Positions 35,401-64,000 of a DNA stretch of 64,000 nucleotides are shown here, piece by piece. How positions within the stretch are numbered: position 1 is the first letter of the stretch; each line of letters starts with the position of its first letter. A program made the position numbers and the translations under genes. The notes under the pieces were generated by a model, which had not been told where the DNA came from, made no database searches, and saw only the letters and a list, made by a program, of their open reading frames with translations. The stretch comes from Lampris incognitus (lineage: Eukaryota > Chordata > Actinopteri > Lampriformes > Lampridae): positions 604,501 to 668,500 of the forward strand of contig NC_079221.1 of NCBI RefSeq assembly GCF_029633865.1, in the 5' to 3' direction.

Positions 35401-38400
35401 TGATCTGTTATTTTGTGGAGCAGGTTAAAAGTTATCTTGACAATGGTGGTGTGGTTGGAGCCGTGTTTTTGGATTTTACAAAGGCCTTTGACACCTTTAA
35501 TCATGACGTCCTACTCTCAAAGAGTTCAAGATTTAACTTTTCCGTTGATGCATTAGACTGGATGGAGTCCTATTTAAATAAGAGAAAACAGTGTACTAAA
35601 ATTGGTGACAAATGTTCAGCAAACACATATTGTACAGCAGGGGTCCCTCAAGGGTCTATACTAGGACCCATTTTATTTAGTATATACATAAACGACCTTC
35701 CACAAGCCTGTCCAGATGTAAACGTTCAAATGTATGCCGACGATACGGTCATCTTAACTCATACAAGATCAAAAGAGCAAGGTGCAGCTAAATTAACAGC
35801 TGCCATGTGCAAGGTATCGGATTGGCTTACAAACTCATGCTTAACTCCCAATGTAAGCAAAACAGTCTGCATGTACTTTACATCAAGGACCAACAATTCA
35901 GTTGATCCAGACATTTTATTAAATGGTGAAGTTATTAATACGGTGACACATGTAAAATATTCAGGCATCATAATGGACAAGCACTTGCCTTTTAAAAAAC
36001 ATGTCAGTAAGGTAACCAAGAACATTAAGTTCAATTTGAATAATTTTAAGAGCATCAGGCATCAAATGTCTTCATCTGCCGCAAATCTTTTTCTACATGC
36101 CATGATTTTCCCTCATTTGTCGTACTGTATAACCACTTGGTCCCAAGCAGGTGTGACCACCCTCAAGCCAGTATATTCTCTATATAAACAGATTTTTTAA
36201 AATATTGGATAAAAAAACCAAGGGAATTTCACCACTGCCATATCCTGAAAAAATATAACTGTCCTAATTTTGATAATTTTTTGTTTTATTCAGATGTATG
36301 CCTGATGTTCAAGATTATTCATGGACTCACCCCCCTGAGAGCATGCCTGGCCTCTCCCGACAATGACAGAACTGTAAGGGTCAGAACCAGAGCATCTTCA
36401 AGGGGAGATTGGGTACCACAGTTTAGGAAGACTACTTTTGATCAATTAGCCTTTTCAGTAAAAGTGGTGGGAAAGTGGAATTCCCTTCCCCCAATGTCAG
36501 AGAGTCAGCCAGCTTTGCGGTGTTTAAAAAGCGTCGTAAACTTTGGTTAAAATCAGCACAAACGTGTAATCACAAATAAATGTCCTTGCTTTAACATTTT
36601 GTACATACTTTAGATTTCACTCGGGGTTTTTGTTGTGCTTTTTATTCAGAGTAGTTACTATATTTTTCTTAGTCCGGAGCAGCCCAGGGTTCTGGCCTGA
36701 ACCAGCCTAGGGTTCTGGCCTGAACCAACCTAGGGTTCTGGCCTGAACCAACCTAGGGTTCTGCCTGAACCAGCCTTGGGTTCTGGCTGGAACCAGCCCA
36801 GGTGCAACTGACCGTAGACTTGTGTGTAATTTATAGTCCCGGCCATTGAACAGGCCAGACTGGTTTTTAGAGCTGTTGTCATAGTTTAGGACAGATTGTT
36901 ATTTATTGATGTTTCAGGTCAGTTTACTATTTATATTTATTGTTGCTGAATAGATGAAATCCATATTCATTATGTTGTTGTCATATAGGCCAGATTGCTA
37001 GTTATATCCCCTGTTTTAAATAGATCAGATTGTATTTATAACTTTTGAGATTGGTTTTCTGATGTATTGTCATGTTTTTACTTCTGTATTAATTGTTGTT
37101 TGTCTGCCTGTCCAATAGTTTTCTTATGTATTGTTATGTTTTTACTTCTGTATTAATTGTTGTTTGTCTGCCTGTCCAATAGTTTTCTTATGTATTGTTA
37201 TGTTTTTACTTCTGTATTAATTGTTGTTTGTTTGCCTGCCCAGGGACTGCAGATGCAAATTAGCTGCCAACTAACTCTGGTGCAATTGTAAAATTGTGCG
37301 TTGTCCCTGTCAAAAAAACAATAAACTAAACTAAGTAAACGCCTTTATATTAGCATCTGTATTTGTCAGTAAAGTAAAAGTCATATTAGCATCTGAATTT
37401 GTCAGTAAATTAAAAGTCATCATATTAGCATCTGTACCTGTCAGTAAAGTAAAAGTCATTGCATTAGCATCTGTATTTGTCAGTAAAGTAATAGTCATCA
37501 TATTGGCATCTGTATTTGTCAGTAAAGTAAACCAAGTAAAAAAACACGTTCTACAGAATTGCTTCAGTTTTGAAGAAGTGTTCATCAGAAGTGTAACTTA
37601 GCGATGCATAAAAGTCCTTGCACGTCAACCCCTTTCTTTCCGGCGATGCTTCCGCAGGTGAAGGTAATACATGCAACACCGGTACTGTATATCAGTGAGT
37701 GCTTGCAGACCAGCTGCAAATCTGCCACACCGCTCTATTCCATCAGTTTCAAAATCCTCTGTTGTTCTGCAGGATTTTGCATATTGCCTGTCATCAAAGC
37801 TGCAATGAAGACAAAGCAACTGTTGTCAGCTGACAGGTTTGAACCCCAATATCTATAACTATTTGACAAGGGAAACAAACAGCGCAAAAAATAAACAAAT
37901 AACTAAAAGAAAATATAGCAAGGAACTGCTGAAGGCATAGGTTTTAAACATGACACATGTTTTGTTTTTGTGGATTTTCTCACCCTTTTTTCCCCAGTTG
38001 TATCCGGCCAATTACCCCACTCTTCTGAGCCGTCCCGGTCGCTGCTCCACCCCCTCTGCTGATCCAGGGAGGGCTGCAGACTACCACATACCCCCTCCCA
38101 TACATGTGGAGTCACCAGCCGCTTCTTTTCACCTGACAGTGAGGAGTTTCACCGGGGGGACGTAGCACGTGGGAGGAGCACGCTATTCCCCCCAGTTCCC
38201 CCTCCCCCCTGAACAGACGCCCCGACCGACCAGAGGAGGCGTGAGTGCAGTGACCAGGACACATACTCACATCCAGCTTCCCACCCACAGACATGGCTAA
38301 CTGTGTCTGTAGAGACACTAAGCCAGGGGTAACACAGGGATTTGAACCAGTGATCCCCGTGTTGATAGGCAACGGAACAGCCCGCCATGCTACCTGGACA

Positions 38401-42988: not shown

Positions 42989-45900
42989 CTGAGAAACCAT
43001 CTGCTCGCTCCGTATTACCACCACTCCAGAAACAGTGTTTTTGTTGAGAAACTATCTGCTCGCCCTGTATTACGACCACTCCAGAAACAGTGTTTTTGTT
43101 GAGAAACTATCTGCTCACTCTATATTACCACCACTCCAGAAACGGTGTTTTTGTTTAGAAACCATCTGCTCGCTCCCTATTATGACCACTCCAGAAACAG
43201 TGTTTTTGGTGAGAAACTATCTGCTCACTCCATATTACCACCACTCCAGAAACTGTGTTTTTGTTGAGAAACTATCTGCTCGCTCTGTATTACGACCACT
43301 CCAGAAACAGTGATTTTGTTGAGAAACTATCTGCTCGCTCTATATTACCACCACTCCAGAAATAGTGTTTTTGTTGAGAAACTATCTGCTCACTCTGTAT
43401 TACCACCACTCCAGAAACAGTGTTTTTGTTGAGGAACTATCTGCTCACTCCATATTACCACCACTCCAGAAACGTTACTTTTGCTGAGAAACCATCTGCT
43501 CGCTCCGTATTACGACCACTCCAGAAATGGTGTTTTTGTTGAGAAACCATCTGCTCGCTCTGTATTACGACCACTCCAGAAACGGTGTTTTTGTTGAGAA
43601 ACTAGCTGCTCGCTCCGTATTACGACCACTCCAGAAACAATGAGAACATTCACAGACATGTTCCAGAAACAGTGTTTTTGTTGAGAAACTATCTGCTCAC
43701 TCCCTATTATGACCACTCCAGAAACAGTGTTTTTGCTGAGAAATTATCTGCTCGCTCTATATTACCACCACTCCAGAAATGGTGTTTTTGTTGAGAAACT
43801 ATCTGCTAGCTCTGAAATACCACCACTCCAGGAACAGTGTTTTTGTTGAGAAAATATCTGCTCACTCCGTATTACCACCACTCCAGAAATGGTGTTTTTG
43901 TTGAGAAACTATCTGCTCGCTCTGAATTACCACCACTGCAGAAACAGTGTTGTTTTGAGAAACTATCTGCTCGCTCTGAATTACAACTCCAGAAACGGTG
44001 TTTTTGTTTAGAAACCATCTGCTCACTCCCTATTATGACCACTACAGAAATGGTGTTTTTGTTGAGAAACTATCTGCTCGCTCCCTATTATGACCCACTC
44101 CAGAAACAATGAGAACATTCACAGTCATGTTCCAGAAACAGTATTTTTGCTGAGAAACCATCTGCTCGCTCTGTATTACAACCACTCCAGAAACGGTGTT
44201 TTTGTTGAGAAGCTATCTGCTCACTCCCTATTATGACCACTCCAGAAATGGTGTTTTTGTTGAGAAACTATGTGCTCGCTCTGAATTACCACCACTCTAA
44301 AAACAGTGTTTTTGTTGAGAAACTATCTGCTCACTCCATATTACCACCACTCCAGAAAAGGGTGTTTTTGTTGAGAAGCTATCTGCTCACTCCATATTAC
44401 CACCACTCCAGAAACGGTGTTTTTGTTGAGAAACTATCTGCTCGCTCCGTATTACGACCACTGCAGAAACAATGAGAACATTCACAGTCATGTTCCAGAA
44501 ACAGTGTTTTTGTTGAGAAACTATCTGCTCGCTCTGTATTACAACCACTCCAGAAACAGTGTATTTGTTGAGAAACCATCTGCTCACTCCCTATTATGAC
44601 CAATTCAAGAAATGGTGTTTTTGTTGAGAAACCATCTGCTCACTCCCTATTATGACCACTCCAGAAATGGTGTTTTTGTTGAGAAACCATCTGCTCACTC
44701 CCTATTATGACCACTCCAGAAATGGTGTTTTTGTTGAGAAACTATCTGCTCGCTCTGAATTACCACCATTCCAGAAACAGTGCTTCTGTTGAGAAACTAT
44801 CTGCTCACTCCATATTACCACCACTCCAGAAACAATGAGAACATTCACAGACATGTTCCAGAAACAGTGTTTTTGTTGAGAAACTATCTGCTCACTCCGT
44901 ATTACCACCACTCTAGAAACGGTGTTTTTGTTGAGAAACTATCTGCTCGCTCTGTATTACCACCACTCTAGAAACGGTGTTTTTGTTGAGAAACTATCTG
45001 CTCACTCCGTATTACCACCACTCTAGAAATGGTGTTTTTGTTGAGAAACTATCTGCTCGCTCTGTATTACAACCACTCAAGAAACAGTGTTTTTGTTGAG
45101 AAACCATCTGCTCACTCCCTATTATGACCCACTCCAGAAACAATGAGAACATTCACAGTCATGTTCCAGAAACAGTATTTTTGCTGAGAAACCATCTGCT
45201 CGCTCTGTATTACAACCACTCCAGAAATGGTGTTTTTGTTGAGAAACCATCTGCTCACTCCCTATTACGACCACTCCAGAAATGGTGTTTTTGTTGAGAA
45301 AGTATGTGCTTGCTCTGAATTACCACCACTCCAGAAACAGTGTTTTTGCTGAGAAATTATCTGCTCACTCCCTATTATGACCACTCCAGAAATGGTGTTT
45401 TTGTTGAGAAACCATCTGCTCACTCCCTATTATGAACAATCCAGAAATGGTGTTTTTGTTGAGAAACTATGTGCTCGCTCTGGATTTACCACCGCTCAAA
45501 AAACAGTGTTCTTGTTGAGAAACTATCTGCTCGCTCCCTATTACGACCACTACAGAAACAGTGTTTTTGTTGAGAAACTATCAGCTCACTCCGTATTACA
45601 ACCACTCCTGAAACAATGACAACATTCACAGACACGTTACAGAAACAGTGTTTTTGTTGAGAAAGTATGTGCTTGCTCTGTATTACCACCACTCCAGAAA
45701 CAGTGTTTTTGCTGAGAAACTATCTGATCGCTCTGTATTACGACCACTCCAGAAATGGTGTTTTTGTTGAGAAACTATCTGCTCGCTCTGAATTACAACC
45801 AATCAAGAAACAGTGTTTTTGTTGTGAAACCATCTGCTCACTCCCTATTATGACCAATCCAGAAATGGTGTTTTTGTTGAGAAACCATCGGCTCACTCCC

Positions 45901-48900
45901 TATTATGACCAATCCAGAAATGGTGTTTTTGTTGAGAAACTATGTGCTCGCTCTGAATTACCACCACTCCAAAAACTGTTTTTGTTGAGAAACTATCTGC
46001 TCGCTCCCTATTACGACCACTCCAGAAACAGTGTTTTTGTTGAGAAACTATCTGCTCGCTCCGTATTACGACCACTCCAGAAACAATGACAACATTCACA
46101 GACATGTTCCAGAAACAGTGTTTTTGTTCAGAAAGTATGTGCTCGCTCTGTATTACCACCACTCCAGAAACAGTGTTTTTGCTGAGAAACCGTCTGCCCA
46201 CTCCCTATTATGACCACTCCAGAAATGGTGTTTTTGTTGAGAAACCATCTGCTCACTCCCTATTATGACCAATTCAAGAAATGGTGTTTTTGTTGAGAAA
46301 CCATCTGCTCACTCCCTATATTATGACCAATCCAGAAATGGTGTTTTTATTGAGAAACTATCTGCTCGCTCCCTATTACGACCACTCCAGAAACAGTGTT
46401 ATTGTTGAGAAACTATCTGCTCGCTCCGTATTACGACCACTCCAGAAACAATGAGAACATTCACAGACATGTTACAGAAACAGTGTTTTTGTTGAGAAAG
46501 TATGTGCTTGCTCTGTATTACCACCATTCCAGAAACAGTGTTTTTGCTGAGAAACTATCTGCTCGCTCTGTATTACGACCACTCCAGAAATGGTGTTTTT
46601 GTTGAGAAACTATCTGCTCGCTCTGAATTACCACCACTCCAGAAAGATTGTTTTTGTTGAGAAACTATCTGCTCGCTCCTTATTATGACCACTCCAGAAA
46701 CAATGAGAACATTCACAGTCATGTTCCAGAAACAGTGTTTTTGCTGAGAAACCATCTGCTCGCTCTGTATTACAACCACTCCAGAAATGGTGTTTTTGTT
46801 GAGAAACCATCTGCTCACTCCCTATTATGACCACTCCAGAAATGGTGTTTTTGTTGAGAAACCATCTGCTCACTCCCTATTATGACCACTACAAAAATGG
46901 TGTTTTTGTTGAGAAAGTATGTGCTTGCTCTGTATTACCACCACTCCAGAAACAGTGTTTTTGCTGAGAAACTATCTGATCGCTCTGTATTACTACCACT
47001 CCAGAAACAGTGTTTTTGCTGAGAAACTATCTGCTCGCTCTGTATTACGACCACTCCAGAAATGGTGTTTTTGTTGAGAAACTATCTGCTCGCTCTTAAT
47101 TGCCACCACTCCAGAAATGGTGTTTTTGTTGAGAAACTATCTGCTCACTCCATATTACCACCACTCCAGAAACGGTGTTTTTGTTGAGAAACTATCTGCT
47201 CGCTCCGTATTACGACCACTCCAGAAACAATGAGAACATTCACAGACATGTTACAGAAACAGTGTTTTTGTTGAGAAAGTATGTGCTTGCTCTGTATTAC
47301 CACCACTCCAGAAACAGTGTTTTTGCTGAGAAACTATCTGCTCGCTCTGTATTACGACCACTCCAGAAATGGTGTTTTTGTTGAGAAATTATCTGCTCGC
47401 TCTGAATTACAACCAATCAAGAAACAGTGTTTTTGTTGAGAAACCATCTGCTCACTCTCTATTATGACCACTCCACAAATGGTGTTTTTGTTGAGAAACC
47501 ATCTGCTCACTCCCTATTATGACCACTCCAGAAATGGTGTTTTTGTTGAGAAACCATCTGCTCACTCCCTATTATGACCACTCCAGAAATGGTGTTTTTG
47601 TTGAGAAACCATCTGCTCACTCCCTATTATGACCAATCCAGAAATGGTGTTTTTGTTGAGAAACTATGTGCTCGCTCTGAATTACCACCACTCCAAAAAT
47701 GGTGTCTTTGTTGAGAAACTATCTGCTCGCTCCCTATTACGATCACTCCAGAACAGTGTTTTTGTGAGAAACTATCTGCTCGATCCGTATTACGACCACT
47801 CCAGAAACAATGAGAACATTCACAGACATGTTACAGAAACAGTGTTTTTGTTGAGAAAGTATGTGCTTGCTCTGTATTACCACCACTCCAGAAACAGTGT
47901 TTTTGCTGAGAAACTATCTGCTCGCTCTGTATTACGACCACTCCAGAAATGGTGTTTTCGTTGAGAAACTATCTGCTCGCTCTGAATTACTACCACTCCA
48001 GAAAGAGTGTTTTTGTTGAGAAACTATCTGCTCGCTCTGTATTACCACCACTCTAGAAATGGTGTTTTTGTTGAGAAACCATCTGCTCACTCCCTATTAT
48101 GACCACTGCAGAAATGGTGTTTTTGTTGAGAAACCATCTGCTCACTCCCTATTATGACCACTCCAGAAATGGTGTTTTTGTTGAGAAACCATCTGCTCAC
48201 TCCCTATTACGACCACTCCAGAAATGGTGTTTTTGTTGAGAAACTATCTGCTCGCTATGAATTACCACCACTCCAGAAACAGTGTTTTTGTTGAGAAACT
48301 ATCTGCTCACTCCATATTACCACCACTCCAGAAACAATGAGAACATTCACAGACATGTTCCAGAAACAGTGTTTTTGTTGAAAAACTATCTGCTCACTCC
48401 GTATTACCACCACTCTAGAAACGGTGTTTTTGTTGAGAAACCATCTGCTCACTCCCTATTATATCCACTCCAGAAATGGTGTTTTTGTTGAGAAACCATC
48501 TGCTCACTCCCTATTATGACCACTCCAGAAACAATGAGAACATTCACAGACATGTTACAGAAACAGTGTTTTTGCTGAGAAACTATCTGATCGCTCTGTA
48601 TTACTACCACTCCAGAAACAGTGTTTTTGTTGAGAAACTATCTGCTCGCTCTGAATTACCACCACTCCAAAAACAGTGTTTTTGTTGAGAAACTATCTGC
48701 TCGCTCCCTATTACGACCACTCCAGAAACAGTGTTTTTGTTGAGAAACTATCTGCTCGCTCCGTATTACGACCACTCCAGAAACAATGACAACATTCAAA
48801 GACATGTTCCAGAAACAGTGTTTTTGTTGAGAAAGTATGTGCTCGCTCTGTATTACCACCACTCCAGAAACAGTGTTTTTGCTGAGAAACTATCTGCTCG

Positions 48901-51900
48901 CTCTGTATTACGACCACTCCAGAAATGGTGTTTTCGTTGAGAAACTATCTGCTCGCTCTGAATTACTACCACTCCAGAAAGAGTGTTTTTGTTGAGAAAC
49001 TATCTGCTCGCTCGGAATTACAACCACTCAAGAAACAGTGTTTTTGTTGAGAAACCATCTGCTCACTCCCTATTATGACCACTGCAGAAATGGTGTTTTT
49101 GTTGAGAAACCATCTGCTCACTCCCTATTATGACCACTCCAGAAATGGTGTTTTTGTTGAGAAACCATCTGCTCACTCCCTATTACGACCACTCCAGAAG
49201 TGGTGTTTTTGTTGAGAAACTATCTGCTCGCTATGAATTACCACCACTCCAGAAACAGTGTTTTTGTTGAGAAACTATCTGCTCACTCCATATTGCCACC
49301 ACTCCAGAAACAATGAGAACATTCACAGACATGTTCCAGAAACAGTGTTTTTGTTGAGAAACTATCTGCTCACTCCGTATTACCACCACTCTAGAAACGG
49401 TGTTTTTGTTGAGAAACCATCTGCTCACTCCCTATTATATCCACTCCAGAAATGGTGTTTTTGTTGAGAAACCATCTGCTCACTCCCTATTACGACCACT
49501 CCAGAAATGGTGTTTTTGTTGAGAAACTATCTGCTCGCTCTGAATTACCACCACTCCAGAAACAGTGTTTTTGTTGAGAAGCTATCTGCTCACTCCATAT
49601 TACCACCACTCCAGAAACAATTAGAACATTCACAGACATGTTCCAGAAACAGTGTTTTTGTTGAGAAACCATCTGCTCACTCCCTATTATATCCACTCCA
49701 GAAATGGTGTTTTTGTTGAGAAACCATCTGCTCACTCCCTATTATGACCACTCCAGAAACAATGAGAACATTCACAGACATGTTACAAAAACAGTGTTTT
49801 TGCTGAGAAACTATCTGATCGCTCTGTATTACTACCACTCCAGAAACAGTGTTTTTGCCGAGAAACTATCTGCTCGCTCTGTATTACCACCACTCCAGAA
49901 ATGGTGTTTTTGTTGAGAAACTATCTGCTCACTCCATATTACCACCACTCCAGAAACAGTGTTTTTGTTGAGAAACTATCTGCTCGCTCCGTATTACAAC
50001 CACTCCAGAAACAATGAGAACATTCACAGACATGTTACAGAAACAGTGTTTTTGTTGAGAAAGTATGTGCTTGCTCTGTATTACCACCACTCCAGAAACA
50101 GTGTTTATGCTGAGAAACTATCTGCTCGCTCTGTATTACGACCACTCCAGAAATGGTGTTTTTGTTGAGAAACTATCTGCTCGCTCTGAATTACAACCAA
50201 TCAAGAAACAGTGTTTTTGTTGAGAAACCATCTGCTCACTCCCTATTATGACCACTCCAGAAATGGTGTTTTTGTTGAGAAACCATCTGCTCACTCCCTA
50301 TTATGACCAATCCAGAAATGGTGTTTTTGTTGAGAAACTATGTGCTCGCTCTGAATTACCACCACTCCAAAAACAGTGTTTTTGTTGAGAAACCATCTGC
50401 TCACTCCCTATTATGACCACTCCAGAAATGGTGTTTTTGTTGAGAAACTATCTGCTCGCTCCCTATTACGACCACTCTGGAAACAGTGTTTTTGTTGAGA
50501 AACTATCTGCTCGCTCCGTATTACGACCACTCCAGAAACAATGACAACATTCACAGACATGTTCCAGAAACAGTGTTTTTGTTGAGAAAGTATGTGCTCG
50601 CTCTGTATTACCACCACTCCAGAAACAGTGTTTTTGCTGAGAAACCGTCTGCTCACTCCCTATTATGACCACTCCAGAAATGGTGTTTTTGTTGAGAAAC
50701 CATCTGCTCACTCCCTATTATGACCAATCCAGAAATGGTGTTTTTGTTGAGAAACTATTTGCTCACTCTGAATTACCACCACTCCAAAAAACGGTGTTTT
50801 TGTTGAGAAACTGTCTGCTCGCTCCCTATTACGACCACTCCAGAAACAGTGTTTTTGTTGAGAAAGTATGTGCTTGCTCTGAATTACCACCACTCCAGAA
50901 ACAGTGTTTTTGTTGAGAAACTATCTGCTCACTCCATATTACCACCACTCCAGAAACAATGAGAACATTCACAGACATGTTCCAGAAACAGTGTTTTTGT
51001 TGAGAAACCATCTGCTCACTCCCTATTATATCCACTCCAGAAATGGTGTTTTTGTTGAGAAACCATCTGCTCACTCCCTATTATGACCACTCCAGAAACA
51101 ATGAGAACATTCACAGACATGTTACAGAAACAGTGTTTTTGCTGAGAAACTATCTGATCGCTCTGTATTACTACCACTCCAGAAACAGTGTTTTTGCCGA
51201 GAAACTATCTGCTCGCTCTGTATTACCACCACTCCAGAAATGGTGTTTTTGTTGAGAAACTATCTGCTCACTCCATATTACCACCACTCCAGAAACAGTG
51301 TTTTTGTTGAGAAACTATCTGCTCGCTCCGTATTACAACCACTCCAGAAACAATGAGAACATTCACAGACATGTTACAGAGACTGTGTTTTTGTTGAGAA
51401 AGTATGTGCTTGCTCTGTATTACCACCACTCCAGAAACAGTGTTTATGCTGAGAAACTATCTGCTCGCTCTGTATTACGACCACTCCAGAAATGGTGTTT
51501 TTGTTGAGAAACTATCTGCTCGCTCTGAATTACAACCAATCAAGAAACAGTGTTTTTGTTGAGAAACCATCTGCTCACTCCCTATTATGACCACTCCAGA
51601 AATGGTGTTTTTGTTGAGAAACCATCTGCTCACTCCCTATTATGACCAATCCAGAAATGGTGTTTTTGTTGAGAAACTATGTGCTCGCTCTGAATTACCA
51701 CCACTCCAAAAACAGTGTTTTTGTTGAGAAACGATCTGCTCACTCCCTATTATGACCACTCCAGAAATGGTGTTTTTGTTGAGAAACTATCTGCTCGCTC
51801 CCTATTACGACCACTATGGAAACAGTGTTTTTGTTGAGAAACTATCTGCTCGCTCCGTATTACGACCACTCCAGAAACAATGACAACATTCACAGACATG

Positions 51901-54900
51901 TTCCAGAAACAGTGTTTTTGTTGAGAAAGTATGTGCTCGCTCTGTATTACCACCACTCCAGAAACAGTGTTTTTGCTGAGAAACCGTCTGCTCACTCCCT
52001 ATTATGACCAATCCAGAAATGGTGTTTTTGTTGAGAAACCATCTGCTCACTCCCTATTATGACCAATCCAGAAATGGTGTTTTTGTTGAGAAACTATTTG
52101 CTCACTCTGAATTACCACCACTCCAAAAACGGTGTTTTTGTTGAGAAACTGTCTGCTCGCTCCCTATTACGACCACTCCAGAAACAGTGTTTTCGTTGAG
52201 AAAGTATGTGCTTGCTCTGTATTACCACCACTCCAGAAACAGTGTTTTTGCTGAGAAACTATCTGCTCGCTCTGTATTACGACCACTCCAGAAATGGTGT
52301 TTTTGTTGAGAAACTATCTGCTCGCTCTGTATTACAACCACTCAAGAAACAGTGTTTTTGTTGAGAAACCATCTGCTCACTCCCTATTATGACCACTGCA
52401 GAAATGGTGTTTTTGTTGAGAAACCATCTGCTCACTCCCTATTATGACCACTCCAGAAATGGTGTTTTAGTTGAAAAACCATCTGCTCACTCCCTATTAC
52501 GACCACTCCAGAAATGGTGTTTTTGTTGAGAAACTTTCTGCTCGCTCTGAATTACCATCACTCCAGAAACAGTGTTTTTGTTGAGAAACTATCTGCTGAC
52601 TCCGTATTACCACCACTCTAGAAACGGTGTTTTGTTGAGAAACCATCTGCTCACTCCCTATTATATCCACTCCAGAAATGGTGTTTTTGTTGAGAAACCA
52701 TCTGCTCACTCCCTATTATGACCAATCCAGATATGGTGTTTTTGTTGAGAAACTATGTGCTCGCTCTGAATTACCACCACTCCAAAAAACGGTGTTTTTG
52801 TTGAGAAACTGTCTGCTCGCTCCCTATTACGACCACTCCAGAAACAGTGTTTTTGTTGAGAAAGTATGTGCTTGCTCTGAATTACCACCACTCCAGAAAC
52901 AGTGTTTTTGTTGAGAAACTATCTGCTCACTCCATATTACCACCACTCCAGAAACAATGAGAACATTCACAGACATGTTCCAGAAACAGTGTTTTTGTTG
53001 AGAAACCATCTGCTCACTCCCTATTATATCCACTCCAGAAATGGTGTTTTTGTTGAGAAACCATCTGCTCACTCCCTATTATGACCACTCCAGAAACAAT
53101 GAGAACATTCACAGACATGTTACAGAAACAGTGTTTTTGCTGAGAAACTATCTGATCGCTCTGTATTACTACCACTCCAGAAACAGTGTTTTTGCCGAGA
53201 AACTATCTGCTCGCTCTGTATTACCACCACTCCAGAAATGGTGTTTTTGTTGAGAAACTATCTGCTCACTCCATATTACCACCACTCCAGAAACAGTGTT
53301 TTTGTTGAGAAACTATCTGCTCGCTCCGTATTACAACCACTCCAGAAACAATGAGAACATTCACAGACATGTTACAGAGACTGTGTTTTTGTTGAGAAAG
53401 TATGTGCTTGCTCTGTATTACCACCACTCCAGAAACAGTGTTTATGCTGAGAAACTATCTGCTCGCTCTGTATTACGACCACTCCAGAAATGGTGTTTTT
53501 GTTGAGAAACTATCTGCTCGCTCTGAATTACAACCAATCAAGAAACAGTGTTTTTGTTGAGAAACCATCTGCTCACTCCCTATTATGACCACTCCAGAAA
53601 TGGTGTTTTTGTTGAGAAACCATCTGCTCACTCCCTATTATGACCAATCCAGAAATGGTGTTTTTGTTGAGAAACTATGTGCTCGCTCTGAATTACCACC
53701 ACTCCAAAAACAGTGTTTTTGTTGAGAAACGATCTGCTCACTCCCTATTATGACCACTCCAGAAATGGTGTTTTTGTTGAGAAACTATCTGCTCGCTCCC
53801 TATTACGACCACTATGGAAACAGTGTTTTTGTTGAGAAACTATCTGCTCGCTCCGTATTACGACCACTCCAGAAACAATGACAACATTCACAGACATGTT
53901 CCAGAAACAGTGTTTTTGTTGAGAAAGTATGTGCTCGCTCTGTATTACCACCACTCCAGAAACAGTGTTTTTGCTGAGAAACCGTCTGCTCACTCCCTAT
54001 TATGACCAATCCAGAAATGGTGTTTTTGTTGAGAAACCATCTGCTCACTCCCTATTATGACCAATCCAGAAATGGTGTTTTTGTTGAGAAACTATTTGCT
54101 CACTCTGAATTACCACCACTCCAAAAACGGTGTTTTTGTTGAGAAACTGTCTGCTCGCTCCCTATTACGACCACTCCAGAAACAGTGTTTTCGTTGAGAA
54201 AGTATGTGCTTGCTCTGTATTACCACCACTCCAGAAACAGTGTTTTTGCTGAGAAACTATCTGCTCGCTCTGTATTACGACCACTCCAGAAATGGTGTTT
54301 TTGTTGAGAAACTATCTGCTCGCTCTGTATTACAACCACTCAAGAAACAGTGTTTTTGTTGAGAAACCATCTGCTCACTCCCTATTATGACCACTGCAGA
54401 AATGGTGTTTTTGTTGAGAAACCATCTGCTCACTCCCTATTATGACCACTCCAGAAATGGTGTTTTAGTTGAAAAACCATCTGCTCACTCCCTATTACGA
54501 CCACTCCAGAAATGGTGTTTTTGTTGAGAAACTTTCTGCTCGCTCTGAATTACCATCACTCCAGAAACAGTGTTTTTGTTGAGAAACTATCTGCTGACTC
54601 CGTATTACCACCACTCTAGAAACGGTGTTTTGTTGAGAAACCATCTGCTCACTCCCTATTATATCCACTCCAGAAATGGTGTTTTTGTTGAGAAACCATC
54701 TGCTCACTCCCTATTATGACCAATCCAGATATGGTGTTTTTGTTGAGAAACTATGTGCTCGCTCTGAATTACCACCACTCCAAAAACAGTGTTTTTGTTG
54801 AGAAACTATCTGCTCGCTCCCTATTACGACCACTCCAGAAACAGTGTTTTTGTTGAGAAACTATCTGCTCACTCCATATTACCACCACTCCAGAAACAAT

Positions 54901-57900
54901 GAGAACATTCACAGACATGTTCCAGAAACAGTGTTTTTGTTGAGAAAGTATGTGCTCGCTCTGTATTACCACCACTCCAGAAACAGTGTTTTTGCTGAGA
55001 AACCGTCCGCTCACTCCCTATTATGACCACTCCAGAAATGGTGTTTTTGTTGAGAAACCATCTGCTCACTCCCTATTATGACCACTCCAGAAATGGTGTT
55101 TTTGTTGAGAAACCATCTGCTCACTCCCTATTATGACCAATCCAGAAATGGTGTTTTTGTTGAGAAACTATGTGCTCGCTCTGAATTACCACCACTCCAA
55201 AAACGGTGTTTTTGTTGAGAAACTATCTGCTCGCTCCCTATTACGACCACTCCAGAAACAGTGTTTTTGTTGAGAAACTATCTGCTCGCTCCGTCTTACG
55301 ACCACTCCAGAAGCAATGAGAACATTCACAGACATGTTACAGAAACAGTGTTTTTGTTGAGAAAGTATGTGCTTGCTCTGTATTACCACCACTCCAGAAA
55401 CAGTGTTTTTGTTGAGAAACTATCTGCTCGCTCTGAATTACCACCACTCCAGAAAGAGTGTTTTTGTTGAGAAACTATCTGCTCGCTCTGTATTACAACC
55501 ACTCAAGAAACAGTGTTTTTGTTGAGAAACCGTCTGCTCACTCCCTATTATGACCACTCCAGAAATGGTGTTTTTGTTGAGAAACCATCTGCTCACTCCC
55601 TATTATGACCACTCCAGAAATGGTGTTTTTTTGAGAAACCATCTGCTCACTCCCTATTATGACCACTCCAGAAATGGTGTTTTTGTTGAGAAACCATCTG
55701 CTCACTCCCTATTACGACCACTCCAGAAATGGTGTTTTTGTTGAGAAACCATCTGCTCACTCCCTATTACGACCACTCCTGAAATGGTGTTTTTGTTGAG
55801 AAACTATCTGCTCGCTCTGAATTACCACCACTCCAGAAACAGTGTTTTTGTTGAGAAACTATCTGCTCACTCCATATTACCACCACTCCAGAAACAATGA
55901 GAACATTCACAGACATGTTCCAGAAACAGTGTTTTTGTTGAGAAAATATCTGCTCACTCCGTATTGCCACCACTCTAGAAACGGTGTTTTGTTGAGAAAC
56001 TATCTGCTCGCTCCCTATTACGACCACTCCAGAAACAGTGTTTTTGTTGAGAAACTATCTGCTCACTCCATATTACCACCACTCCAGAAACAATGAGAAC
56101 ATTCACAGACATGTTCCAGAAATTGTGTTTTTGTTGAGAAAGTATGTGCTCGCTCTGTATTACCACCACTCCAGAAACAGTGTTTTTGCTGAGAAACCGT
56201 CTGCTCACTCCCTATTATGACCACTCCAGAAATGGTGTTTTTGTTGAGAAACTTTCTGCTCGCTCTGAATTACCACCACTCCAGAAACAGTGTTTTTGTT
56301 GAGAAACTATCTGCTCACTCCCTATTATATCCACTCCAGAAATGGTGTTTTTGTTGATAAACCATCTGCTCACTCCCTATTATGACCAATCCAGATATGG
56401 TGTTTTTGTTGAGAAACTATGTGCTCGCTCTGAATTACCACCACTCCAAAAACAGTGTTTTTGTTGAGAAACTATCTGCTCGCTCCCTATTACGACCACT
56501 CCAGAAACAGTGTTTTTGTTGAGAAACTATCTGCTCACTCCATATTACCACCACTCCAGAAACAATGAGAACATTCACAGACATGTTCCAGAAACAGTGT
56601 TTTTGTTGAGAAAGTATGTGCTCGCTCTGTATTACCACCACTCCAGAAACAGTGTTTTTGTTGAGAAACTATCTGCTCGCTCTGTATTACAACCACTCAA
56701 GAAACAGTGTTTTTGTTGAGAAACCGTCTGCTCACTCCCTATTATGACCATTCAAGAAATGGTGTTTTTGTTGAGAAACCATCTGCTCACTCCCTATTAT
56801 GACCACTCCAGAAATGGTGTTTTTTTGAGAAACCATCTGCTCACTCCCTATTATGACCACTCCAGAAATGGTGTTTTTGTTGAGAAACCATCTGCTCACT
56901 CCCTATTATGACCACTCCAGAAATGGTGTTTTTGTTGAGAAACCATCTGCTCACTCCCTATTACGACCACTCCTGAAATGGTGTTTTTGTTGAGAAACTA
57001 TCTGCTCGCTCTGAATTACCACCACTCCAGAAACAGTGTTTTTGTTGAGAAACTATCTGCTCACTCCATATTACCACCACTCCAGAAACAATGAGAACAT
57101 TCACAGACATGTTCCAGAAACAGTGTTTTTGTTGAGAAAATATCTGCTCACTCCGTATTGCCACCACTCTAGAAACGGTGTTTTGTTGAGAAACTATCTG
57201 CTCGCTCCCTATTACGACCACTCCAGAAACAGTGTTTTTGTTGAGAAACTATCTGCTCACTCCATATTACCACCACTCCAGAAACAATGAGAACATTCAC
57301 AGACATGTTCCAGAAACAGTGTTTTTGTTGAGAAAGTATGTGCTCGCTCTGTATTACCACCACTCCAGAAACAGTGTTTTTGCTGAGAAACCGTCTGCTC
57401 ACTCCCTATTATGACCACTCCAGAAATGGTGTTTTTGTTGAGAAACTTTCTGCTCGCTCTGAATTACCACCACTCCAGAAACAGTGTTTTTGTTGAGAAA
57501 CTATCTGCTCACTCCGTATTACCACCACTCTAGAAACGGTGTTTTGTTGAGAAACCATCTGCTCACTGCCTATTATATCCACTCCAGAAATGGTGTTTTT
57601 GTTGAGAAACCATCTGCTCACTCCCTATTATGACCAATCCAGATATGGTGTTTTTGTTGAGAAACTATGTGCTCGCTCTGAATTACCACCACTCCAAAAA
57701 CAGTGTTTTTGTTGAGAAACCATCTGCTCACTCCCTATTATGACCACTCCAGAAACAGTGTTTTTGTTGAGAAACTATCTGCTCACTCCATATTACCACC
57801 ACTCCAGAAACAATGAGAACATTCACAGACATGTTCCAGAAACAGTGTTTTTGTTGAGAAAGTATGTGCTCGCTCTGTATTACCACCACTCCAGAAACAG

Positions 57901-60900
57901 TGTTTTTGCTGAGAAACCGTCCGCTCACTCCCTATTATGACCACTCCAGAAATGGTGTTTTTGTTGAGAAACCATCTGCTCACTCCCTATTATGACCACT
58001 CCAGAAATGGTGTTTTTGTTGAGAAACCATCTGCTCACTCCCTATTATGACCAATCCAGAAATGGTGTTTTTGTTGAGAAACTATGTGCTCGCTCTGAAT
58101 TACCACCACTCCAAAAACGGTGTTTTTGTTGAGAAACTATCTGCTCGCTCCCTGTTACGACCACTCCAGAAACAGTGTTTTTGTTGAGAAACTATCTGCT
58201 CGCTCCGTCTTACGACCACTCCAGAAACAATGAGAACATTCACAGACATGTTACAGAAACAGTGTTTTTGTTGAGAAAGTATGTGCTTGCTCTGTATTAC
58301 CACCACTCCAGAAACAGTGTTTTTGTTGAGAAACTATCTGCTCGCTCTGAATTACCACCACTCCAGAAAGAGTGTTTTTGTTGAGAAACTATCTGCTCGC
58401 TCTGTATTACAACCACTCAAGAAACAGTGTTTTTGTTGAGAAACCGTCTGCTCACTCCCTATTATGACCACTCCAGAAATTGTGTTTTTGTTGAGAAACC
58501 ATCTGCTCACTCCCTATTATGACCACTCCAGAAATGGTGTTTTTTTGAGAAACCATCTGCTCACTCCCTATTATGACCAATCCAGAAATGGTGTTTTTGT
58601 TGAGAAACTATGTGCTCGCTCTGAATTACCACCACTCCAAAAACAGTGTTTTTGTTGAGAAACGATCTGCTCACTCCCTATTATGACCACTCCAGAAATG
58701 GTGTTTTTGTTGAGAAACTATCTGCTCGCTCCCTATTACGACCACTATGGAAACAGTGTTTTTGTTGAGAAACTATCTGCTCGCTCCGTATTACGACCAC
58801 TCCAGAAACAATGACAACATTCACAGACATGTTCCAGAAACAGTGTTTTTGTTGAGAAAGTATGTGCTCGCTCTGTATTACCACCACTCCAGAAACAGTG
58901 TTTTTGCTGAGAAACCGTCTGCTCACTCCCTATTATGACCAATCCAGAAATGGTGTTTTTGTTGAGAAACCATCTGCTCACTCCCTATTATGACCAATCC
59001 AGAAATGGTGTTTTTGTTGAGAAACTATTTGCTCACTCTGAATTACCACCACTCCAAAAACGGTGTTTTTGTTGAGAAACTGTCTGCTCGCTCCCTATTA
59101 CGACCACTCCAGAAACAGTGTTTTCGTTGAGAAAGTATGTGCTTGCTCTGTATTACCACCACTCCAGAAACAGTGTTTTTGCTGAGAAACTATCTGCTCG
59201 CTCTGTATTACGACCACTCCAGAAATGGTGTTTTTGTTGAGAAACTATCTGCTCGCTCTGTATTACAACCACTCAAGAAACAGTGTTTTTGTTGAGAAAC
59301 CATCTGCTCACTCCCTATTATGACCACTGCAGAAATGGTGTTTTTGTTGAGAAACCATCTGCTCACTCCCTATTATGACCACTCCAGAAATGGTGTTTTA
59401 GTTGAAAAACCATCTGCTCACTCCCTATTACGACCACTCCAGAAATGGTGTTTTTGTTGAGAAACTTTCTGCTCGCTCTGAATTACCATCACTCCAGAAA
59501 CAGTGTTTTTGTTGAGAAACTATCTGCTGACTCCGTATTACCACCACTCTAGAAACGGTGTTTTGTTGAGAAACCATCTGCTCACTCCCTATTATATCCA
59601 CTCCAGAAATGGTGTTTTTGTTGAGAAACCATCTGCTCACTCCCTATTATGACCAATCCAGATATGGTGTTTTTGTTGAGAAACTATGTGCTCGCTCTGA
59701 ATTACCACCACTCCAAAAAACGGTGTTTTTGTTGAGAAACTGTCTGCTCGCTCCCTATTACGACCACTCCAGAAACAGTGTTTTTGTTGAGAAAGTATGT
59801 GCTTGCTCTGAATTACCACCACTCCAGAAACAGTGTTTTTGTTGAGAAACTATCTGCTCACTCCATATTACCACCACTCCAGAAACAATGAGAACATTCA
59901 CAGACATGTTCCAGAAACAGTGTTTTTGTTGAGAAACCATCTGCTCACTCCCTATTATATCCACTCCAGAAATGGTGTTTTTGTTGAGAAACCATCTGCT
60001 CACTCCCTATTATGACCACTCCAGAAACAATGAGAACATTCACAGACATGTTACAGAAACAGTGTTTTTGCTGAGAAACTATCTGATCGCTCTGTATTAC
60101 TACCACTCCAGAAACAGTGTTTTTGCCGAGAAACTATCTGCTCGCTCTGTATTACCACCACTCCAGAAATGGTGTTTTTGTTGAGAAACTATCTGCTCAC
60201 TCCATATTACCACCACTCCAGAAACAGTGTTTTTGTTGAGAAACTATCTGCTCGCTCCGTATTACAACCACTCCAGAAACAATGAGAACATTCACAGACA
60301 TGTTACAGAGACTGTGTTTTTGTTGAGAAAGTATGTGCTTGCTCTGTATTACCACCACTCCAGAAACAGTGTTTATGCTGAGAAACTATCTGCTCGCTCT
60401 GTATTACGACCACTCCAGAAATGGTGTTTTTGTTGAGAAACTATCTGCTCGCTCTGAATTACAACCAATCAAGAAACAGTGTTTTTGTTGAGAAACCATC
60501 TGCTCACTCCCTATTATGACCACTCCAGAAATGGTGTTTTTGTTGAGAAACCATCTGCTCACTCCCTATTATGACCAATCCAGAAATGGTGTTTTTGTTG
60601 AGAAACTATGTGCTCGCTCTGAATTACCACCACTCCAAAAACAGTGTTTTTGTTGAGAAACGATCTGCTCACTCCCTATTATGACCACTCCAGAAATGGT
60701 GTTTTTGTTGAGAAACTATCTGCTCGCTCCCTATTACGACCACTATGGAAACAGTGTTTTTGTTGAGAAACTATCTGCTCGCTCCGTATTACGACCACTC
60801 CAGAAACAATGACAACATTCACAGACATGTTCCAGAAACAGTGTTTTTGTTGAGAAAGTATGTGCTCGCTCTGTATTACCACCACTCCAGAAACAGTGTT

Positions 60901-63900
60901 TTTGCTGAGAAACCGTCTGCTCACTCCCTATTATGACCAATCCAGAAATGGTGTTTTTGTTGAGAAACCATCTGCTCACTCCCTATTATGACCAATCCAG
61001 AAATGGTGTTTTTGTTGAGAAACTATTTGCTCACTCTGAATTACCACCACTCCAAAAACGGTGTTTTTGTTGAGAAACTGTCTGCTCGCTCCCTATTACG
61101 ACCACTCCAGAAACAGTGTTTTCGTTGAGAAAGTATGTGCTTGCTCTGTATTACCACCACTCCAGAAACAGTGTTTTTGCTGAGAAACTATCTGCTCGCT
61201 CTGTATTACGACCACTCCAGAAATGGTGTTTTTGTTGAGAAACTATCTGCTCGCTCTGTATTACAACCACTCAAGAAACAGTGTTTTTGTTGAGAAACCA
61301 TCTGCTCACTCCCTATTATGACCACTGCAGAAATGGTGTTTTTGTTGAGAAACCATCTGCTCACTCCCTATTATGACCACTCCAGAAATGGTGTTTTAGT
61401 TGAAAAACCATCTGCTCACTCCCTATTACGACCACTCCAGAAATGGTGTTTTTGTTGAGAAACTTTCTGCTCGCTCTGAATTACCATCACTCCAGAAACA
61501 GTGTTTTTGTTGAGAAACTATCTGCTGACTCCGTATTACCACCACTCTAGAAACGGTGTTTTGTTGAGAAACCATCTGCTCACTCCCTATTATATCCACT
61601 CCAGAAATGGTGTTTTTGTTGAGAAACCATCTGCTCACTCCCTATTATGACCAATCCAGATATGGTGTTTTTGTTGAGAAACTATGTGCTCGCTCTGAAT
61701 TACCACCACTCCAAAAACAGTGTTTTTGTTGAGAAACTATCTGCTCGCTCCCTATTACGACCACTCCAGAAACAGTGTTTTTGTTGAGAAACTATCTGCT
61801 CACTCCATATTACCACCACTCCAGAAACAATGAGAACATTCACAGACATGTTCCAGAAACAGTGTTTTTGTTGAGAAAGTATGTGCTCGCTCTGTATTAC
61901 CACCACTCCAGAAACAGTGTTTTTGCTGAGAAACCGTCCGCTCACTCCCTATTATGACCACTCCAGAAATGGTGTTTTTGTTGAGAAACCATCTGCTCAC
62001 TCCCTATTATGACCACTCCAGAAATGGTGTTTTTGTTGAGAAACCATCTGCTCACTCCCTATTATGACCAATCCAGAAATGGTGTTTTTGTTGAGAAACT
62101 ATGTGCTCGCTCTGAATTACCACCACTCCAAAAACGGTGTTTTTGTTGAGAAACTATCTGCTCGCTCCCTATTACGACCACTCCAGAAACAGTGTTTTTG
62201 TTGAGAAACTATCTGCTCGCTCCGTCTTACGACCACTCCAGAAGCAATGAGAACATTCACAGACATGTTACAGAAACAGTGTTTTTGTTGAGAAAGTATG
62301 TGCTTGCTCTGTATTACCACCACTCCAGAAACAGTGTTTTTGTTGAGAAACTATCTGCTCGCTCTGAATTACCACCACTCCAGAAAGAGTGTTTTTGTTG
62401 AGAAACTATCTGCTCGCTCTGTATTACAACCACTCAAGAAACAGTGTTTTTGTTGAGAAACCGTCTGCTCACTCCCTATTATGACCACTCCAGAAATGGT
62501 GTTTTTGTTGAGAAACCATCTGCTCACTCCCTATTATGACCACTCCAGAAATGGTGTTTTTTTGAGAAACCATCTGCTCACTCCCTATTATGACCACTCC
62601 AGAAATGGTGTTTTTGTTGAGAAACCATCTGCTCACTCCCTATTACGACCACTCCAGAAATGGTGTTTTTGTTGAGAAACCATCTGCTCACTCCCTATTA
62701 CGACCACTCCTGAAATGGTGTTTTTGTTGAGAAACTATCTGCTCGCTCTGAATTACCACCACTCCAGAAACAGTGTTTTTGTTGAGAAACTATCTGCTCA
62801 CTCCATATTACCACCACTCCAGAAACAATGAGAACATTCACAGACATGTTCCAGAAACAGTGTTTTTGTTGAGAAAATATCTGCTCACTCCGTATTGCCA
62901 CCACTCTAGAAACGGTGTTTTGTTGAGAAACTATCTGCTCGCTCCCTATTACGACCACTCCAGAAACAGTGTTTTTGTTGAGAAACTATCTGCTCACTCC
63001 ATATTACCACCACTCCAGAAACAATGAGAACATTCACAGACATGTTCCAGAAATTGTGTTTTTGTTGAGAAAGTATGTGCTCGCTCTGTATTACCACCAC
63101 TCCAGAAACAGTGTTTTTGCTGAGAAACCGTCTGCTCACTCCCTATTATGACCACTCCAGAAATGGTGTTTTTGTTGAGAAACTTTCTGCTCGCTCTGAA
63201 TTACCACCACTCCAGAAACAGTGTTTTTGTTGAGAAACTATCTGCTCACTCCCTATTATATCCACTCCAGAAATGGTGTTTTTGTTGATAAACCATCTGC
63301 TCACTCCCTATTATGACCAATCCAGATATGGTGTTTTTGTTGAGAAACTATGTGCTCGCTCTGAATTACCACCACTCCAAAAACAGTGTTTTTGTTGAGA
63401 AACTATCTGCTCGCTCCCTATTACGACCACTCCAGAAACAGTGTTTTTGTTGAGAAACTATCTGCTCACTCCATATTACCACCACTCCAGAAACAATGAG
63501 AACATTCACAGACATGTTCCAGAAACAGTGTTTTTGTTGAGAAAGTATGTGCTCGCTCTGTATTACCACCACTCCAGAAACAGTGTTTTTGTTGAGAAAC
63601 TATCTGCTCGCTCTGTATTACAACCACTCAAGAAACAGTGTTTTTGTTGAGAAACCGTCTGCTCACTCCCTATTATGACCATTCAAGAAATGGTGTTTTT
63701 GTTGAGAAACCATCTGCTCACTCCCTATTATGACCACTCCAGAAATGGTGTTTTTTTGAGAAACCATCTGCTCACTCCCTATTATGACCACTCCAGAAAT
63801 GGTGTTTTTGTTGAGAAACCATCTGCTCACTCCCTATTATGACCACTCCAGAAATGGTGTTTTTGTTGAGAAACCATCTGCTCACTCCCTATTACGACCA

Positions 63901-64000
63901 CTCCTGAAATGGTGTTTTTGTTGAGAAACTATCTGCTCGCTCTGAATTACCACCACTCCAGAAACAGTGTTTTTGTTGAGAAACTATCTGCTCACTCCAT
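42989..64000. repeat. giant 55-bp minisatellite with higher-order structure
   Basis: Over 21 kb, continuing past the window. Basic unit: cactccagaaacagtgtttt, tgttgagaaactatctgctc, gctctgtattaccac. Main variants change cagtg/tggtg/cggtg, cta/cca before tctgctc, and gctctg/actccc/actccg. About 40 units carry an inserted aacaatgagaacattcacag + acatgttccag segment. Many open frames of 60-86 codons are repeat artefacts. On gene context it should be intronic to dip2a. Confidence 0.97.
51625..58555. repeat. 6,931-bp higher-order repeat, first copy
   Basis: Everything compared from 51625 to 57069 reappears at 58556-64000 at a constant 6,931-bp offset, including rare private variants. Examples are the tttagttgaaaaacc unit, the ccagaagcaatgag unit and the ccagaaattgtg unit. 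The second copy is cut by the window end. Confidence 0.9.

Follow-up and report, generated by a model that had tools for sequence, protein, structure and literature searches.

Introduction

Alpha satellite consists of higher-order repeats of diverged monomers, in which multi-monomer blocks are near-identical while the edges of the array are diverged. Human subtelomeric genes with variable-number tandem repeats (VNTRs) include PTPRN2, DLGAP2 and ABCA7, and the variability of these repeats has been tied to meiotic recombination, unequal crossover and non-allelic homologous recombination (PMC7608644). Here we describe a tandem array of a 55-bp unit in an intron of dip2a in the fish Lampris incognitus. 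The stretch analysed (the window) is 64,000 nucleotides long and corresponds to C14:604,501-668,500, C14 being a 60-Mb contig of a 1.48-Gb assembly of 537 contigs; the next 160 kb were added and are read in window coordinates up to 224,000. All results on the array come from this single assembly of one individual. The array is probably a single-locus, subtelomeric minisatellite that grows by in-register unequal exchange of multi-unit blocks, with tagged units of 87 bp among those of 55 bp.

Results

The array and its place in dip2a

The array runs from 42,990 to 80,520 (C14:685,020), a length of 37,531 bp (~37.5 kb) that holds 633 units and no N. A preliminary description of the window had taken its last third to be one 55-bp unit family. 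This was confirmed, with Tandem Repeats Finder (TRF) following the 55-bp periodicity from 42,990 to the end of the window, and in the added sequence the array proved larger than described. Parsed with two unit types, the whole array gave 547 units of the 55-bp type and 86 of the 87-bp type, and its part in the window (42,990-64,000; like the array features below, assigned to no strand) gave 356 units, 310 and 46 of the two types respectively. Unit lengths are 52-58 bp or 87-88 bp, except for the last, a partial unit of 43 bp; both types are thus tandem units within the range of about 10-100 bp used for minisatellites. The GC content of the array unit is 41% and the observed/expected CpG ratio of the array is 0.39.

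The gene around the array is dip2a. With Garra rufa DIP2A (P0002) as the query, tblastn found 21 collinear pieces on the minus strand of the window between 42,838 and 11,610; at the latter position the open frame finishes in ...AYNM and is followed by a stop. The preliminary description had staked its intronic placing of the array on upstream dip2a exons lying beyond 64,000. They were found: residues 120-157 of P0002 match at 115,880-115,767, the next piece, and residues 156-207 at 42,838-42,683, so that the protein is continuous across the array. A second homolog A protein (P0120) gave 15 collinear pieces from 115,767 to 192,464. The exons on both sides are in order and carry splice sites, CCGCAG/GTAAGC upstream and CTCTCGCAG/ACCC downstream (the slash marks the boundary), which bears out the placing of the array inside a dip2a intron. 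The exon 3' of this intron, with edges read from the sequence, lies at 42,694-42,833 on the minus strand, and the 3' splice site is 156 bp from the start of the array. The intron, also on the minus strand, fills the window from 42,834 to 64,000 and continues to 115,767, giving ~72.9 kb, of which tandem repeats make up 71,243 of 72,928 bp (~98%). The scale, which the preliminary description had called unusual for an intron, is indeed unusual. We infer that the intron would be spliced around the array, effectively enough to leave dip2a intact.

The assignment to dip2a was examined with a protein query of joined exons, for which 7,995 candidates were scored, 596 fell at E<=0.001 and the best 120 of the 596 were listed. 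The best-scoring named matches were DIP2 homolog A, with 78% for Chelonia mydas (P0001) and 77% for Garra rufa (P0002); proteins named DIP2 homolog B or C scored 51-70% among the matches listed. In a Pfam scan of eight translated stretches, three matched DIP2-related models, two of them PF23024 (one above and one below the cut-off) and one PF24919 (just below the cut-off), and a fourth had a weak match to an AMP-binding model.

The preliminary description had proposed searching for the unit across the genome. Exact matches to the pattern TGAGAAACNATCTGCTCNCTCNNNATTAYNACCAC number 305 across the 1.48-Gb assembly, with none on the other strand, and all 305 lie in the dip2a array; the search was for exact matches, which diverged or unassembled copies escape. 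By this exact pattern the unit is not that of a satellite family, which would have arrays at centromeres or at numerous loci. When a 401-base piece of the array served as a DNA query, the only two places matched were those of a dispersed element described below (L001 and L002); this search passes over very common words, and the array itself was not among its matches. Comparison with the other repeats in the window gave short weak matches only, and a 21-base core matched none of the viral contigs searched, from which records near the window's own genome may have been left out. The array as coding sequence was excluded, as all six frames of its in-window part carry stops (195-337 per frame), and known RNA families had no match at gathering score anywhere in the window. 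We found no paper in the literature linking dip2a with minisatellites, and no title naming the array among the matches listed for fish or intronic minisatellites, subtelomeric repeats, higher-order repeats and VNTR nesting.

Block duplications

Offsets of 976, 1,194, 1,339, 1,998, 2,914 and 6,931 bp between matching units had been reported from the window; ungapped comparison of pairs recovered all of them and allowed their mismatches to be counted. The most recent copies, those of a ~10-kb, a 1,998-bp and a 6,931-bp event, are 0.01-0.14% diverged. At offset 6,931, 51,614-58,608 and 58,545-65,539 differ by 1 mismatch in 6,995 bp, and the match is exact over 5,456 bp up to the end of the window and over 6,966 bp with the added sequence. 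This duplication occupies 51,614-64,000 of the window, its second copy reaching 65,539, with an in-register junction at 58,492-58,545. At offset 1,998 (duplication at 50,669-54,786), 50,669-52,788 and 52,667-54,786 differ at 3 of 2,120 positions, which all fall in a 32-bp stretch close to the left edge; the repeated block already described is borne out and is identical over 2,023 bp (50,766-52,788 and 52,764-54,786). The left parent of the ~10-kb duplication lies at 47,427-58,608 and its copy at 66,717-76,939, outside the window, and the two are 0.06-0.10% diverged. The long-range pairs are at offset 19,290 (47,427-52,788, 3 mismatches in 5,362), offset 17,292 (52,667-58,608, 6 in 5,942) and offset 10,361 (59,598-66,578, 5 in 6,981). 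Assuming a substitution rate of 1e-8 per site and generation, a divergence of 0.06-0.10% would correspond to some 28,000-50,000 generations.

Older duplications within the window, at offsets 976 (48,062-49,492; 3 mismatches in 455), 1,339 (49,537-52,129; 8 in 1,254) and 2,914 (54,480-58,608; 11 in 1,215), the last with a duplication at offset 1,194 inside it (6 in 885), are 0.6-0.9% diverged. Further pairs were seen in the window at offsets 1,666 (1 mismatch in 352) and 2,567 (18 in 543, 3.3%), and beyond it at offset 2,390 (74,871-76,930; 24 in 2,060, 1.2%).

The nesting of these duplications, proposed in the preliminary description, is real. The 6,931-bp copy takes in part of the 1,998-bp pair, which would place the 6,931-bp event last. 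The right ~10-kb copy is without one 1,998-bp block, so the ~10-kb event either preceded the 1,998-bp event or the block was lost from the copy. Collapsing offset 19,290 leaves 18,241 bp of array.

The 55-bp register is kept at all six junctions examined (6,931, 1,998, 1,339, 2,914, 1,194 and the ~10-kb copy). Past the exact block at the 6,931-bp junction, only about one unit is in common, and one base is missing. At the ~10-kb junction a stretch of ~138 bp at 66,579-66,716, the length of two to three units, has no match in either parent. The structure of both junctions fits recombination between misaligned units.

Diversity of the units

The identical blocks had been read as satellite-like homogenisation of the unit, with identity rising from left to right. 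Homogenisation of the unit was not borne out. The 546 units of the 55-bp type compared differ at 6.79 positions per 55 (~12%) and fall into 135 haplotypes, and the diversity is flat along the array, every one of 21 bins (30 units each) giving 4.8-5.8 differences across the 43 columns shared. Neighbours are almost random with respect to one another. Over the whole array the lag-1 difference was 5.05 against 5.26 in shuffled arrays (z -2.2), and at lags 2 and 3 units differed more than shuffled ones (z +4.3 and +3.6). By region, lag-1 was near the shuffled value over the left part (z -1.8) and the middle (z 0.0), no neighbour similarity was seen at the left edge (z -0.4), and at the right edge neighbours were somewhat more alike (4.57 against 5.41 shuffled, z -2.9). 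Flat diversity together with nearly random neighbours indicates that unit-by-unit slippage adds little and that block copying dominates. Local slippage as the chief mode of growth was rejected on the near-shuffled lag-1 differences, although neighbours at the right edge are somewhat alike.

Of the gradient in identity, the diverged left edge stood, at 42,990 to about 47.4 kb (42,990-47,400), where best-partner identity is 0.73-0.92. In the core, ~47.4-79 kb, it is 0.94-1.0 and mostly 1.0, but it falls again to 0.77-0.87 at the right edge, 79.0-80.5 kb, and unit diversity is flat throughout. The apparent rise from left to right arose because the left edge is diverged and the window ends inside the core. 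Blocks of several kilobases are thus homogenised, and the 55-bp unit is not: monomers ~12% apart lie in recent blocks that differ by 0.01-0.14%, the pattern of a young higher-order repeat. A run of many head-to-tail copies of one block, also a mark of higher-order repeats, is not seen here: the copies of each block are few and the block sizes nested.

Four dinucleotide sites in each unit are seen as CG, TG and CA, and at two of them also as CC. These sites of CpG decay are 8 of the 55 columns and carry 55% of unit diversity. Mismatches between block copies were counted in seven block pairs, some of them overlapping, over 6,824 bp with 100 CpGs in the first copies; of the 50 mismatches, 10 were CpG transitions, 17 other transitions and 23 transversions.

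The 87-bp units

The 87-bp unit is a 55-bp unit with 32 additional bp, namely the 22-bp piece ATGAGAACATTCACAGACATGT followed by a repeat of the 10 bp that come before it, TCCAGAAACA. In the unit at 50,914-51,000, for example, the direct repeats are at 50,949-50,958 and 50,981-50,990 and the 22-bp piece at 50,959-50,980. This piece matches the 3' end of a dispersed repeat element at every base. The copy of the element on C6 (L002:1508-1768, minus strand) is 261 bp long and contains long inverted repeats. It lies between the two halves of a perfect 12-bp target-site duplication, TACAGAACACTA, which sets the end of the element at ...ACATGT independently of the array. The copy on C16 (L001) is 69 bp long, with both ends as in L002 and an imperfect duplication. 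All three targets, in the array, L002 and L001, start with T[ACG]CAGA. The additional segment therefore stops at the element's own end, as two element copies define it, and is flanked by a target-site duplication, as expected of a mobile-element insertion.

In a model-based alignment both insertion junctions are at one position in 86 of 86 units. The 10-bp flanking repeats are exact in 50 of these; 22 units have one mismatch, 10 have two and 4 have three. Over the part shared by both unit types, diversity is 0.061 in 87-bp units and 0.145 in 55-bp units, as a single founder predicts. Many 87-bp units have A in place of C just after the fragment, which extends their match to the two other element flanks; we take this to be a later change. 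A single insertion followed by spread through block copying is best read as the origin of the 87-bp units and would account for all of them. The statement that no transposon interrupts the array holds for whole elements but not for this fragment, which is present in 46 of 356 units in the window and 86 of 633 overall.

Two side observations concern the element. The RNA-family scan of the L002 copy gave weak matches to microRNA families on its inverted-repeat hairpin, and that of the L001 copy one match to a small-RNA family, all below gathering scores. In 87-bp units retaining the C variant, for example at 50,973-50,982, the sequence AGACATGTTC across the fragment and its flank fits the p53 half-site consensus; this p53-like half site is probably a coincidence.

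Tandem repeats around the array

The same intron holds a second giant array, of the 14-bp unit GTCATCCACTCACT, which extends for ~33 kb (80,785-113,836; C14:685,285-718,336, L005-L008), and a 0.7-kb array of a 20-bp unit. The 14-bp array also has exact repeats of more than 1 kb, at offsets up to ~14.8 kb. A third large array, of a 35-bp unit, runs from 195,355 to past 224,000 (L017-L019; at least 28.6 kb) and lies past the last dip2a exon piece matched on the 5' side. Counting periods of at least 7 and lengths of at least 100, tandem repeats total 129,554 of the 224,000 bp.

They are not limited to dip2a, as other samples near the start of C14 are also rich. In the first ~2 Mb of C14, 14,052 of the 80,000 bp in twelve further samples were tandem repeat, with any at all in 7 of the 12, while six samples from 3 to 50 Mb had none in 30,000 bp. 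The samples adjoining the low end of the window (L020 and L021) had no tandem repeat; two rich samples (L036 and L031) lie within 50 kb past the 224-kb stretch. L031 (C14:870,001-875,000), 200 kb past the window, is tandem repeat of period 26 over 5,000 of its 5,000 bp. The locus is 0.6 Mb from the end of C14, whose start shows only a short degenerate CCCTAA cluster. These few samples point to a regional, subtelomeric excess of minisatellites, comparable to the one reported from human chromosomes (PMC7608644).

Across the 3' part of dip2a (11,610-42,838), and just beyond it, are eleven smaller tandem-repeat stretches between 10,255 and 40,816, with base units of 14-64 bp and lengths up to 2.1 kb; ten lie between dip2a exon pieces and the first is 3' of the stop codon. 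A 39-bp unit occurs in two separate arrays in this region, 2.5 kb apart (32,744-34,854 and 37,333-37,531), and a gap of 200 N lies at 15,088-15,287, between a CT repeat and a 61-bp minisatellite.

Discussion

We propose that the locus was at first a tandem array of 55-bp units, which then diverged from one another, CpG sites accounting for more than their share of the change. A 22-bp 3'-terminal fragment of a mobile element may then have entered one unit, creating a 10-bp target-site duplication and with it the 87-bp unit, which block copying would have spread to 86 places. Growth would be by in-register unequal homologous exchange of multi-unit blocks, or by an equivalent repair event, and three recent nested events, of ~10 kb, then 1,998 bp, then 6,931 bp, may have taken the array from ~18.2 to 37.5 kb. 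We infer both the order of these events and homologous exchange as their mechanism from the block structure. The array would need no function of its own, and the gene would stay intact.

Several points weigh against this history. Two copies define the end of the element, and in one of these the duplication is imperfect. The ~138 bp that match neither parent mean that the ~10-kb event is no plain two-parent crossover. Some small-scale copying occurs at the right edge, as the similarity of neighbours there shows, and CpG decay, though above its site share, does not make up most of recent change. With one assembly only, the recent blocks could also be partly assembly expansion.

The last point can be taken further. 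Two haplotypes, of ~27 kb and ~18 kb, might have been joined end to end, or the assembler might have duplicated blocks, and the true array would then be much shorter. The ~10-kb copy is close enough to its parent (0.06-0.10%) to be allelic, the end of one allele followed by the start of the other is the arrangement expected from a false join, and the assembly has its 200-N gap elsewhere in dip2a. The array itself, however, is without N, and both junctions, 58,492-58,545 and ~66,579-66,716, keep the register and lack the long overlap on which an assembler could make a join. We consider such an artefact unlikely.

It is more doubtful still that the 87-bp unit is ancestral and that the 55-bp units arose from it by deletion between the 10-bp direct repeats. 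Such a deletion would give back an exact 55-bp unit, but the shared part of the 87-bp units is less diverse than that of the 55-bp units, the 87-bp units are the minority (86 of 633), and their extra segment is the end of an element with a target-site duplication.

We give very little credence to the idea that slippage and gene conversion homogenised the 55-bp unit. The kilobase-long identical blocks and the similarity of neighbours at the right edge would favour it; flat diversity of ~12%, 135 haplotypes in 546 units and a lag-1 difference close to shuffled in the left part and middle oppose it. Equally hard to credit is that the array is kept for a role in dip2a expression, slowing transcription or acting as a methylated or protein-binding block: it does lie within an intron of a conserved, apparently intact gene with further arrays in it, and gigantic satellite introns in Drosophila are reported to be transcribed under a special programme (PMC6508621), but no constraint on the unit was seen, though not tested for directly, and the regional excess of unrelated minisatellites suggests a mutational cause.

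Growth of the array by in-register block exchange, with the 87-bp unit as a tag, leads to a more speculative idea, possible though we would not expect it. dip2a might be a live hotspot of minisatellite building, in which kilobase blocks are still exchanged, the length of the intron varies widely between individuals and transcription is affected. If so, the 22-bp tag from one founder unit would make each exchange traceable.

The locus separates two ideas that are often merged, as the array is satellite-like through the copying of kilobase blocks while its units stay diverged. Mismatches between blocks, together with the CpG sites, give the locus a clock of its own, and the 22-bp element end with its target-site duplication gives it a tag. 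Clock and tag together make the steps from a minisatellite toward a higher-order array readable, and testable in individuals. The locus also indicates that an apparently intact vertebrate gene can hold an intron that is ~98% tandem repeat.

The array resembles alpha satellite in its diverged monomers within near-identical blocks and in its diverged edges; unlike alpha satellite it is a single intronic locus, not centromeric, with a 55-bp unit and two to three copies of a block. It is like the human subtelomeric VNTR genes in that a single large gene close to the end of a chromosome carries many minisatellites (PMC7608644), but single arrays in dip2a reach 33-37.5 kb, and the unit has 41% GC, whereas the human class most enriched exceeds 60% (PMC7608644). 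As in the Drosophila Y-linked genes kl-3 and kl-5, an intron of a functional gene is almost all tandem repeat; the introns of kl-3 and kl-5 contain megabases of simple repeats on the Y and have a special expression programme, while dip2a has 72.9 kb of minisatellites in a vertebrate gene and no such programme known (PMC6508621). Atlantic cod offers the parallel of a fish genome dense in tandem repeats and hard to assemble (PMC5241972), with the difference that the excess in L. incognitus was sampled near one contig end and in one gene.

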